A stretch of DNA of 43,680 bases, taken from Thermoplasmatales archaeon. Its GTDB lineage: Archaea; Thermoplasmatota; E2; UBA202; JdFR-43. Numbering within the stretch: the first letter of the stretch is position 1; the number at the start of each line of letters is the position of its first letter. Shown here piece after piece: positions 36,019-43,680 of the stretch. The position numbers and the translations under genes were made by a program. The stretch lies in NCBI GenBank assembly GCA_014361195.1, contig JACIWA010000003.1, positions 1 to 43,680 of the forward strand, written 5' to 3'. The notes beneath the pieces were generated by a model that saw only the letters and a program-made list of their open reading frames with translations, did not search any database and was not told where the DNA came from.

Positions 36019-37257
36019 ATGCCAACAATAATTGAAAAAATTTTTCAGACTCACACAAAGGATAGAGTAGAAGTAGGGGAAACAATATGGCTGGATATTG
36101 ATTTAAGGACTGCACGCGACTTTGCAGGAGCGAATGTAGTAAAAAATTTAATCGAAAATTACAGCAAGGATTATATAGCGGATGCAAAAAAAACATTTTT
36201 TACATTTGACTGCAATGCCCCTGCAAATACTATTGAATATGCGACAAATCAGCAAATATGTAGAAAATTTGCAAGAGAAAATGGAATAAAGATTTATGAT
36301 GTGGATAGCGGGATAGGAAGTCATGTTGTCATTGAAGAGGGGCTTGCATACCCTGGAATAACCGCGGTTAGCACGGATAGCCACTTTAATCTTCTCGGAG
36401 CTATAGGAGCTTTTGGACAAGGAATGGGGGATGTGGATATTGCCTTCGCTTTCAAAACAGGCAAGATATGGTTTGAAGTTCCTCCAACAATAAAAGTTAA
36501 TTTTATTGGTATGCCATCTGGCCTATGGAATGCAAAAGATTTAGCTCTTTTATGTGTAAAGGAATTGAAAAGAATTTCTTTAGGAAAAGCGATAGAATTT
36601 TATGGTGAAATAATTGATTCTCTTTCTTTGGATGGTAGAATAACTCTTTCCTCAATGGTCACTGAAATGGGTGGAATAGCGGGATTTATTCCCCCAGATG
36701 AAAAAGTAATAAAATTTTGCGAAAAGGCCTCTGGAAAGAAAATAAAGCCATTTTATGCGGAGGATGCAAACTATGAGAAGGAAATAGATATAGATGTAAG
36801 GGATCTTGAGCCATTGGTTGCGATGCCTCCTTCTCCCAGCAATGTAAAAAGGGTTAGAGATGTGAAAGATGTGAAAATAGACAGTGTTTTTATTGGCTCA
36901 TGCACAAATGGTAGGATGGATGATATGCAATCCGCATGGAAAATAATAAAAGGAAAAAAGATAAAGGAAGATGTAAAAATGAAGGTTGTTCCAGCAACAA
37001 GAAGATTATGGAAAGAAATGCTTGATAGAGGCATAATAAAAGATTTGGTTGAAGCTGGAGCCATAGTAAGCCATGCATGCTGTGCCGGATGCGCCTCTGG
37101 CCAAATAGGAATGACTGGAATAGATGAAAATCAGGTATCAACTTCAAACAGGAATTTCAAGGGCAAGCAGGGGGCGGGCAACACTTATCTTGCATCTCCT
37201 GAAACAGCAGCTGCGAGTGCTTTAACTGGCTACCTTACTGGAGGTGATGAAATATGA
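36019..37257 (+). CDS. leuC: Aconitase-family dehydratase large subunit (LeuC/HacA type)
   Basis: The product is 412 residues, the length of archaeal IPMI/homoaconitase large subunits rather than monomeric aconitase. The [4Fe-4S] ligands are the Cys of IGSCTNGR and two from SHACCAGCASG. STDSHFNLLGAIGAFGQGMG is the usual active-site His block. It interconverts hydroxy-acid isomers by dehydration and hydration. Possible substrates are isopropylmalate, citramalate, homocitrate or citrate. The small subunit follows with a four-base overlap. No leuA, leuB or lysine-biosynthesis gene is adjacent, so the pathway is not fixed. Confidence 0.85.
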   Translation: MPTIIEKIFQTHTKDRVEVGETIWLDIDLRTARDFAGANVVKNLIENYSKDYIADAKKTFFTFDCNAPANTIEYATNQQICRKFARENGIKIYDVDSGIGSHVVIEEGLAYPGITAVSTDSHFNLLGAIGAFGQGMGDVDIAFAFKTGKIWFEVPPTIKVNFIGMPSGLWNAKDLALLCVKELKRISLGKAIEFYGEIIDSLSLDGRITLSSMVTEMGGIAGFIPPDEKVIKFCEKASGKKIKPFYAEDANYEKEIDIDVRDLEPLVAMPPSPSNVKRVRDVKDVKIDSVFIGSCTNGRMDDMQSAWKIIKGKKIKEDVKMKVVPATRRLWKEMLDRGIIKDLVEAGAIVSHACCAGCASGQIGMTGIDENQVSTSNRNFKGKQGAGNTYLASPETAAASALTGYLTGGDEI

Positions 37258-37766
37258 GAATATCTGGAAGAGTTTGGAAGATAGAGAGAGAAGGTAAACT
37301 TATTGATGACATTGATACAGATATGATTTATCACAACAAATATTTGCATATAACCGATAAAAAGGAGATGGGGAAATATGCTTTCAGCAATCTGCAGGGA
37401 TGGGAAGATTTTCCTAAAAAAGCAAGAAAAGGAGATATAATTTTTGCGGGGGAGAATTTTGGATGCGGTTCATCTCGCCAGCAGGCGGTTGACTGCTTTA
37501 TTCAGCTTGGTATAAATGCGATCGTTGCAAAATCTTTTGGGGCAATATACAAGAGAAATGCAATAAATAGCGGGCTTGCGATAATTGAATGTAAGGATAT
37601 TGATAAGATAGAAGTAAAAAATGGGGATGAAATAGAAATAGACCTTATAAAAGGAGAAATAATCAAGGATGGGAAAATTTTAATAAAAACAAGCCCAATG
37701 AGCGCCATTCAGTATGCTATTTATAAGGCAGGAAATTTATTTGAATATGCGAAATCAATTCAATGA
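37254..37766 (+). CDS. leuD: Aconitase-family dehydratase small subunit (LeuD/HacB type)
   Basis: The product is 170 residues. DIDTDMIYHNKYL near the N-terminus and GENFGCGSSRQQA are the family signatures. The substrate-recognition loop reads YLHI. In the characterised methanogen enzymes I recall YLVY for isopropylmalate and YLRT for homoaconitate; this sequence matches neither, so the substrate stays open. It overlaps the large subunit by ATGA and converges with a microprotein gene. Confidence 0.85.
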   Translation: MRISGRVWKIEREGKLIDDIDTDMIYHNKYLHITDKKEMGKYAFSNLQGWEDFPKKARKGDIIFAGENFGCGSSRQQAVDCFIQLGINAIVAKSFGAIYKRNAINSGLAIIECKDIDKIEVKNGDEIEIDLIKGEIIKDGKILIKTSPMSAIQYAIYKAGNLFEYAKSIQ

Positions 37767-41403: not shown

Positions 41404-41456
41404 TGTTTTTAAATAATTATTAATATTAAAACAATTCGGAAAGTTTGAGAGCAAAA

Positions 41457-41483: not shown

Positions 41484-43016
41484 ATGCGAAATGCGGTTGG
41501 AAGGGAAATACCTGAGGAAATAGCGGGAAGGAAATTAATTACTTATAATGGTCCTTTTTCTTTTAAGCCAGATAAAAGGCAATATGGAAAACCCTTAAAA
41601 TGCGTTTTCCCAGATGAAAAAAAATTATTGCCATCTATAAGAGATGCTATAAAAAAAGTGGGACTTGAAGATGGAATGACAATTTCTTTTCATCATCACT
41701 TAAGAAATGGAGATGCAGTTGTAAATTTAGTTGTTGATGAAATTGCTAAAATGGGAATAAAAGACATAAAGCTTGCTCCAAGTGCTCTCTTTCCTGTACA
41801 TGAAAAACTAATTGAGCATATAAAAAACGGGGTTATTACTTCAATAGAAGGAAGCTTAAATGGTCCTCTTGGGGAGTATGTTTCCAAGCATGGATTAAAA
41901 GAGCCGGTAGTGCTCAGAAGCCACGGAGGAAGAGCAAGAGCAATAAAAAGCGGGGAGCTACACATAGATGTTGCTTTTCTAGCTGCTTCAATTGCGGATG
42001 AATATGGAAATTGCAATGGAATGCTTGGCAAGTCCGCATTTGGAGCAATGGGATTTGCTTATGCAGATGCCCTCTTTGCGGATAATGTTGTAGTGATTAC
42101 AGATAATTTACAGCCATATCCTGTAATACCAATATCAATTCCACAAATATATGTTGATTATGTAGTGCAAGTTGAAAGCATAGGCGATCCTTCTGGCATC
42201 CAGACGGGAACAATGCAGATAACAAGAAGCCCCGCTCGCCTAACGATAGCAAAAAATGTTGTCAAATTCCTAGCAAAAGCAGGCATTCTAAAAGATGGCT
42301 TCTCGTTCCAAGCGGGAGCGGGGGGAATTAGCCTCGCGGTAACGAAATTTTTGCATGAATATATGAAGGAAAATGGGATAGTGGGAGATTTTGTGATGGG
42401 GGGAATAACCGGGTTTGTTGTTGATATGCTCATGGATGGAACAATTAGAAAAATTTTGGATGCTCAGAGTTTTGATTTAAAGGCGGTTGAGTCAATAGCC
42501 AAAAATGCGGGGCATGTTGAAGTGAGCCATATAATGTTCGGTGACCCTCATACATGTGGATGTGTTGTAAATAGGCAAAATGCTTGCTTTTTAGGTGCAA
42601 CAGAAGTTGATTTGAATTTCAATGTAAATGTAAATACTCACTCTGATGGACTGCTTCTACATGGAATAGGAGGGCACCAGGATGCTGCAGCGGGAAGTGA
42701 TATCACTATGATAACAGTTCCATTGCTAAGAGGAAGGTTGCCTGTAATAAGGAAGGAGGTTACAACTGTTTCAACACCCTGCCAAACTATTGATGTTATT
42801 GTTACTGATAGAGGAATTGCAATAAATCCTGAGAGGGAGGATTTAATTGAAGAGGTAAAGGGAAAAATTGATATTGTTGATATAGGAGAGTTATATAAAA
42901 AGGCGATAAATTTGGTTGGTGAGCCAAAAGAGCCAAAGTTGAGTGATGAAATTGTTGCAATAGTTGAATATAGGGACGGGAGTGTTCTTGATGTTATAAG
43001 GAAGGTGAAAGAATGA
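41484..43016 (+). CDS. citF: Citrate lyase alpha subunit / citrate CoA-transferase family
   Basis: The product is 510 residues from the ATG at 41484 (MRNAVGREIPEEIAG), close to bacterial CitF. Family landmarks are FHHHLRNGD, VLRSHGGRARAI, ADEYGNCNG, GDPSGIQTGTMQITRSP and GAGGISLAV. The C-terminal block ends DLNFNVNVNTHSDG, HGIGGHQDAAAGSD. CitF transfers the acyl group from acetyl-ACP (or acetyl-CoA) to citrate. No citD (ACP) or citE (lyase) gene is in the window. The next gene overlaps by ATGA and encodes an aconitase-family subunit. It may be part of citrate cleavage or act as a stand-alone CoA-transferase on citrate or a citramalate-like acid. Confidence 0.85.
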   Translation: MRNAVGREIPEEIAGRKLITYNGPFSFKPDKRQYGKPLKCVFPDEKKLLPSIRDAIKKVGLEDGMTISFHHHLRNGDAVVNLVVDEIAKMGIKDIKLAPSALFPVHEKLIEHIKNGVITSIEGSLNGPLGEYVSKHGLKEPVVLRSHGGRARAIKSGELHIDVAFLAASIADEYGNCNGMLGKSAFGAMGFAYADALFADNVVVITDNLQPYPVIPISIPQIYVDYVVQVESIGDPSGIQTGTMQITRSPARLTIAKNVVKFLAKAGILKDGFSFQAGAGGISLAVTKFLHEYMKENGIVGDFVMGGITGFVVDMLMDGTIRKILDAQSFDLKAVESIAKNAGHVEVSHIMFGDPHTCGCVVNRQNACFLGATEVDLNFNVNVNTHSDGLLLHGIGGHQDAAAGSDITMITVPLLRGRLPVIRKEVTTVSTPCQTIDVIVTDRGIAINPEREDLIEEVKGKIDIVDIGELYKKAINLVGEPKEPKLSDEIVAIVEYRDGSVLDVIRKVKE

Positions 43017-43680
43017 GCTTATCAGAAAAAATATTGTCTGAGAAATGTGGGGAGAAAGTTGAGGCGGGAGAGATAATTGAGGCAAGAGTTGATAAGGCAA
43101 TGAGTCATGACAATGCAGCACTTGTAATAAAAAGTTTTAAAGAAATTGCAACAGAGCCGTGGGATGCAGATAAGATAGTAATTATACTTGATCATAGGGT
43201 GCCAGCTAACACAATAAAAACAGCGGAAAATCATAAGCGAATAAGGGATTTTGTTAAAAAGCATGGGATAAAAAATTTTTATGATATAAACTATGGAATA
43301 TGCCATCAAGTAATGATTGAAGAAGGACATGTAAAGAAAGGAATGCTTATTGTTGGAACAGACAGCCATACAACAAGCTACGGAGCACTAGGAGCATTTT
43401 CAACTGGAATAGGGGCAACTGAAATGGCATCGGTTTGGGCTACCGGAAAAATATGGTTGAAAGTTCCCGAGACAATAAAGTTTGAGATTACTGGAAATCT
43501 CGGGAAAGGAGTTTTTTCAAAAGATATAATTTTGCATATTATAGGAAAGATGGGTTGCGAGGGGGCAAATTATAAAGCTTGCGAATTCTATGGAATAGTT
43601 GAGGATATGCCACTTGCTGACAAAATAACAATAGCAAATATGTCAATGGAAATGGGAGCAAAAGTTGCTCTTTTTGGAGG
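43013..43680 (+). CDS. Second aconitase-family dehydratase large subunit (3' end outside window)
   Basis: The first 222 codons are present, in frame to the window edge. SHDNAALVIKSFKEI, DHRVPANTIKTAENHKRIRDF, FYDINYGICHQVMIEEG and GTDSHTTSYGALGAFSTGIGATEM are diagnostic of the LeuC/HacA-type large subunit. The ATG overlaps the citF stop (ATGA), so the two are coupled. The cluster cysteines and small subunit are expected beyond the edge. Pairing with CitF suggests citrate or a homologue (methylcitrate, citramalate) as substrate, which is inference. Confidence 0.85.
   Translation, partial: MSLSEKILSEKCGEKVEAGEIIEARVDKAMSHDNAALVIKSFKEIATEPWDADKIVIILDHRVPANTIKTAENHKRIRDFVKKHGIKNFYDINYGICHQVMIEEGHVKKGMLIVGTDSHTTSYGALGAFSTGIGATEMASVWATGKIWLKVPETIKFEITGNLGKGVFSKDIILHIIGKMGCEGANYKACEFYGIVEDMPLADKITIANMSMEMGAKVALFG

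Follow-up and report, generated by a model that had tools for sequence, protein, structure and literature searches.

The genome of this Thermoplasmatales archaeon encodes a CitF protein and a CitD-CitE fusion (CitDE) that probably form a two-polypeptide, ATP-independent citrate lyase working on free CoA thioesters, with a CitD domain that would not be acylated. As far as its sequence tells, the archaeal enzyme resembles citrate lyase yet lacks the prosthetic-group site that defines the bacterial family. Citrate lyase is the textbook enzyme that depends on a dedicated covalent CoA derivative supplied by its own pathway. The window, that is the whole stretch of DNA that we analysed, comprises 43,680 nucleotides (C3:1-43680) of a contig that extends to 201 kb, in a genome of 1.25 Mb that is 96% complete with 0.5% contamination. 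The relevant genes lie in the window and on a second contig, C2 (f4, f7, f19 and f32 here and below are anonymous family numbers within our survey of the phylum):

41484..43016, + strand: citF, citrate lyase alpha subunit (CoA-transferase), 510 aa, a complete open reading frame identified by ORF call, Pfam CitF and TIGR01584.
43013..43680, on to contig position 44191, + strand: LeuC2, aconitase/homoaconitase (LeuC/HacA)-type large subunit, 392 aa, sharing an ATGA overlap with citF.
36019..37257, + strand: LeuC1, second hydro-lyase large subunit, placed in the module by synteny (beside HD and CitF in G006 and f4 genomes).
37254..37766, + strand: LeuD1, small subunit of the LeuC1-LeuD1 pair, sharing an ATGA overlap with LeuC1.
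C2:163388-163954 (L006:9389-9955), + strand: HD-domain hydrolase, overlapping the start of the CitDE gene.
C2:163951-165072, + strand: CitD-CitE fusion, 373 aa, identified by whole-genome profile search.
C2:198493-199602, - strand: PF00180 beta-decarboxylating dehydrogenase (isocitrate/isopropylmalate-type), adjoining LeuD2.
C2:199595-200083, - strand: LeuD2, a stand-alone LeuD, overlapping the PF00180 dehydrogenase gene.

The product of citF is a full-length CitF, matching the Pfam CitF profile at 546 bits over positions 2-466 of 466, and its score of 620 bits against the TIGR01584 equivalog (cut-off 501) places it among the CitF alpha subunits. Its start is the ATG at 41484, where the alignments of its relatives also begin; an alternative TTG lies upstream at 41445. 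Within the phylum, at least 79 of the 390 genomes have a CitF protein above the Pfam cut-off. A sequence-only reading of the window had claimed that citF overlaps an aconitase-like gene by ATGA with neither citD nor citE beside it, and both points are borne out: citF ends at 43016, LeuC2 begins at 43013, and no citD, citE or leuD adjoins the pair. We also read the contig to the right of 43680, as had been proposed, and none of these three genes follows directly past LeuC2, the next gene being convergent. The pairing of citF with LeuC2 is not a product of chance, because 12 relatives within the family share it. The convergent gene (L003:1185-2918) encodes a long, extracellular-looking protein of 577 aa and is present near the locus in several relatives.

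Genome-wide, exactly one CitE-type and one CitD-type domain were found, both within the single 373-aa open reading frame on C2, which rules out that citE and citD are wholly missing. The fusion scores 168.6 bits against PF03328 (CitE; cut-off 25), and its CitD part scores 41.5 bits against PF06857 (cut-off 25.1), so that an acyl-carrier domain is present. It falls below the equivalog cut-offs for CitE (TIGR01588, 265 against 443 bits), CitD (TIGR01608, 37 against 63.5 bits) and RipC (NF038242, 202.6 against 375 bits). We rejected contamination in view of the 203-kb contig and of fusions with 68-75% identity in eight named archaeal MAGs, seven of them labelled Thermoplasmata or Thermoplasmatota. 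The overlapping HD hydrolase carries a conserved H...HD motif and neighbours CitDE or CitF in both lyase types (relatives L009-L016, L115-L121, L128, L159, L168-L172); the solved structure nearest to its model is YhaM. We further note a glutamate-dehydrogenase-type gene 0.6 kb from CitDE on the opposite strand, which is compatible with either citrate cleavage or citrate synthesis. A diverged CitDE paralogue in G032 (contig C58, L153:2154-3260) has lost several otherwise invariant active-site residues, at the E132, D133 and D244 positions, and is perhaps a dead or repurposed copy.

In E. coli CitD, the prosthetic group is attached at Ser14, in the motif AGTLES14GD. The archaeal fusion aligns with this site without a gap and reads SGTENE14RD against the bacterial AGTLES14GD, with Glu14 where the serine would be. 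This loss extends well beyond one genome. Across 42 CitF-bearing Thermoplasmatota genomes there are 43 CitD matches, 42 of them readable at this position (the copy in G270 is truncated), and position 14 is Lys in 22, Arg in nine, Glu in six, Ala in two, and Gln, Asn and Pro in one each, with Ser in 0/42; the motifs were checked a second time, the G036 copy being one of those with Lys. By comparison, Ser14 is present in 10/10 bacterial CitD proteins examined, namely those of E. coli, Gluconobacter, Peptoclostridium, Fusobacterium, Azospirillum, Secundilactobacillus, Lelliottia, Klebsiella aerogenes, Enterococcus durans and one Clostridiales MAG; these controls were drawn from plasmid records, E. 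coli and one Clostridiales locus, and the Lelliottia CitD frame is broken further on. The remainder of the archaeal CitD domain is retained, including the flanking G10 and D16, and no substitute conserved Ser was found near position 14 in the archaeal alignment.

The genes that would make and attach a prosthetic group are missing as well. Bacterial CitD is an acyl carrier protein with a CoA-derived prosthetic group (PMC3832036). CitX was found in 0/56 CitF-bearing archaeal genomes and CitG is absent from 69 of 71, the genome under study lacking both, with E. coli as a positive control in each search. The completeness of 96% counts against the argument from absence in this genome, but the same absences recur across many genomes. 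The two exceptions for CitG are the CitD-bearing genomes G006 (C21:40310-41131) and G018 (C54:4657-5508), where the CitG-family gene may serve another purpose. We rejected these matches as proof of an ACP-type enzyme because both genomes have Lys14 and the CitG family also matches archaeal control genomes that have no CitF match. An E. coli CitC query gave no match in the sequences flanking the loci. According to the sequence-only reading, a complete citDE set elsewhere would make this an ordinary citrate lyase; the set does exist, as the fusion on C2, but we rejected an ordinary enzyme split over two loci because of the loss of Ser14 and the absence of citG and citX. These losses, together with the CitF and CitDE pair, support the CoA-using two-protein version that the same reading had put forward.

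The residues required for catalysis in the CitE-like superfamily (PMC3832036) are intact in the fusion by alignment correspondence (Arg164, Glu217, Asp244, Glu132, Asp133 and Asp356). An AlphaFold2 model of CitDE is confident (mean pLDDT 93, pTM 0.90), and the solved structures nearest to its barrel are free-CoA lyases; as the structure library had no true CitE to compete, this proximity is weak evidence. Because the CitE residues are intact and the confident model lies nearest to free-CoA lyases, we propose a free-CoA cycle. CitF would convert citrate and acetyl-CoA to citryl-CoA and acetate, and the CitE barrel, with Mg2+, would split citryl-CoA into oxaloacetate and acetyl-CoA, which would prime the next round. 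CitD would persist in a structural role, having lost its acylation, and the Lys or Arg at the former Ser14 (31 of 42 copies) could, as a guess, grip the CoA phosphates. Isolated subunits of the bacterial enzyme were reportedly found active with free CoA esters in the 1970s.

The dispersed genes of this module stand together in other archaea of the phylum. In G006, LeuC1-LeuD1-HD are followed by CitD-CitE-CitF on the other strand and then by LeuC2 and the dehydrogenase, and G032 has the order LeuC1-LeuD1-HD-CitF-citryl-CoA lyase-LeuC2-LeuD2-dehydrogenase. HD, CitDE and CitF are adjacent in f7 genomes, CitD-CitE-CitF are contiguous in f32 and f19, and in G077 no more than about 2 kb separates CitDE from CitF. 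The f19 operon runs from an aconitase (950 bits, cut-off 612) through CitD, CitE and CitF to an NADP-isocitrate dehydrogenase (653 bits, cut-off 335). In f32, a related LeuC2-like LeuC-LeuD pair directly follows citrate synthase.

Another group within the class, f4, has HD and CitF followed by a citryl-CoA lyase of 256-274 aa (NF004869, 303 bits against 212). The lyase lies beside CitF in all ten f4 genomes searched for PF00285. A search of f4 genomes for CitD gave no match, and their HD-CitF-citryl-CoA lyase operons lack both CitD and CitE. Any CitF that works with a citryl-CoA lyase must deliver free citryl-CoA. This pairing lends independent support to a CoA-using CitF in the phylum, although the f4 CitF proteins form their own branch. 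In several f4 genomes a LeuC-LeuD fusion follows CitF and the lyase. Separately, a PEP-mutase/isocitrate-lyase family gene follows HD-CitF-citryl-CoA lyase in G030 (contig C19, L161:5392-6336), which could hint at methylcitrate chemistry in that genome.

In a tree, LeuC1 and LeuC2 form separate types, with which the respective genes of the window group. LeuC1-LeuD1 (36019-37766) represents a hydro-lyase type of its own, with the small-subunit motif HN[KR]YL[HS]IT; in f4 genomes this type occurs as a fusion and shares an operon with CitF. The best scores of the PF00180 dehydrogenase are to homoisocitrate and isopropylmalate-type models, below their cut-offs, which tempers the case for citrate as the substrate. 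A role of the two LeuCD pairs in making leucine or homocitrate is unlikely, because the genome holds neither a citrate-synthase-type protein (PF00285) nor a PF00682 synthase of the LeuA/homocitrate/citramalate/Re-citrate-synthase type, and on the absence of the latter we rejected both assignments. Under the proposed scheme, the aconitase-like LeuC2/LeuD2 and the PF00180 dehydrogenase would tie 2-oxoglutarate, isocitrate and citrate to oxaloacetate and acetate.

Several other readings of these genes have to be weighed. That of an ordinary ACP-type citrate lyase, with CitD loaded through a different residue or by enzymes not yet known, draws on the conserved G10 and D16 of the CitD fold, which suggest that the domain still matters, and on the CitG-family gene of two relatives. 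We consider it very improbable, since Ser14 has been replaced by the chemically unlike Lys, Arg, Glu, Ala, Pro, Gln and Asn, no other Ser is conserved nearby, CitX is absent throughout and both CitG-bearing genomes carry Lys14. Cys17, three residues past the lost Ser14, might instead replace the prosthetic-group thiol and itself carry the acyl group; it is invariant in 19/19 CitDE fusions and is also found in f19, G126 and G323. However, f32 lacks it, as do the second copies of G032, G166, G055 and G081, and Ser14 is likewise missing from all of these; a side-chain thiol that has no long arm would scarcely be able to reach the two active sites. Such a role is extremely unlikely, and we rejected it because Cys17 is not universal. 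In this genome, as in most of its relatives in the family, CitF and CitDE are located on separate contigs. This would fit a stand-alone CoA-transferase and a stand-alone acyl-CoA lyase that are not partners, a reading to which we give hardly any credence in view of the adjacent HD-CitDE-CitF of f7, the contiguous CitD-CitE-CitF of f32 and f19, and the short distance in G077.

The same free-CoA enzyme might act on a different acid, (S)-citramalate or methylcitrate, with the LeuCD pairs as mesaconase or methylaconitase and with pyruvate (or oxaloacetate) and acyl-CoA as products. The two LeuCD pairs exceed the needs of one aconitase step and are kept with CitF in G006 and G032. Use of CitDEF on citramalate is exemplified by a clostridial set next to genes for methylaspartate mutase, and the last gene of one f4-like operon belongs to the PEP-mutase/isocitrate-lyase family. 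We nevertheless regard such a substrate as unlikely. Citrate is the likely substrate predicted from gene context, because the f19 operons combine a true aconitase, CitDEF and NADP-isocitrate dehydrogenase and because the LeuC2-like genes of f32 come after citrate synthase; the lack of citrate-synthase-type and LeuA-type enzymes in the genome under study points the same way.

No citrate-synthase-type protein (PF00285), ATP-citrate lyase, citryl-CoA lyase or member of the Re-citrate-synthase family was found in the 96% complete genome. Since citrate synthase, ATP-citrate lyase and citryl-CoA lyase all went unfound, CitF and CitDE look like the sole citrate-forming or citrate-splitting enzyme of the organism. 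At low oxaloacetate, cleavage of citrate derived from 2-oxoglutarate is the easier direction. It seems rather improbable that CitF and CitDE, as the only link between acetyl-CoA, oxaloacetate and citrate, run synthetically in place of citrate synthase, through citryl-CoA to citrate and on to isocitrate and 2-oxoglutarate.

The proposed enzyme shares features with several known systems. Bacterial CitDEF (EC 4.1.3.6) has homologous CitF, CitE and CitD, the same CitF equivalog and the same CitE catalytic residues, whereas the archaeal CitD is fused to CitE and lacks Ser14, citG and citX are missing, the genes are dispersed, and the partners are of aconitase and dehydrogenase type. Free citryl-CoA would be an intermediate in common with the citryl-CoA synthetase and citryl-CoA lyase of Hydrogenobacter, the latter type of lyase being used by the f4 relatives; in the archaeal system, however, citrate would be activated by CoA transfer from CitF and not by ATP-driven ligation, and the genome under study has no PF00285 match. 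The clostridial citramalate lyase of the methylaspartate pathway also has CitDEF-type subunits, and a LeuCD-type hydro-lyase can partner that pathway, but Peptoclostridium CitD retains Ser14, with citX and citC adjacent. Malyl-CoA lyase, CLYBL and the citramalyl-CoA lyase RipC/Ccl share the barrel fold, the catalytic residues and the use of free CoA; they differ in lacking a CitD domain and in not having CitF as a partner, and CitDE scores below their family cut-offs.

An archaeal CitF/CitDE of the free-CoA kind is not described in the open-licence PMC papers searched, which present citrate lyase as an ACP-type enzyme; for one ammonia-oxidising archaeon, citE is the sole component reported. 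For citrate cleavage in Thermoplasmatota, one study (PMC9802188) takes account of ATP-citrate lyase and of the synthetase/lyase pair, setting other cleavage aside, and the free-CoA citryl-CoA route is absent from current reconstructions of this kind. If the proposed reading is true, genomes in this group that are listed with citrate lyase CitDEF would make free citryl-CoA, and their annotation would shift. A carrier subunit without carrier chemistry, spread across an archaeal phylum, together with the sister systems in which citryl-CoA lyase takes the place of CitD and CitE, would then be proof that the enzyme can do without the prosthetic group, and it would become possible to ask which form of the enzyme came first.
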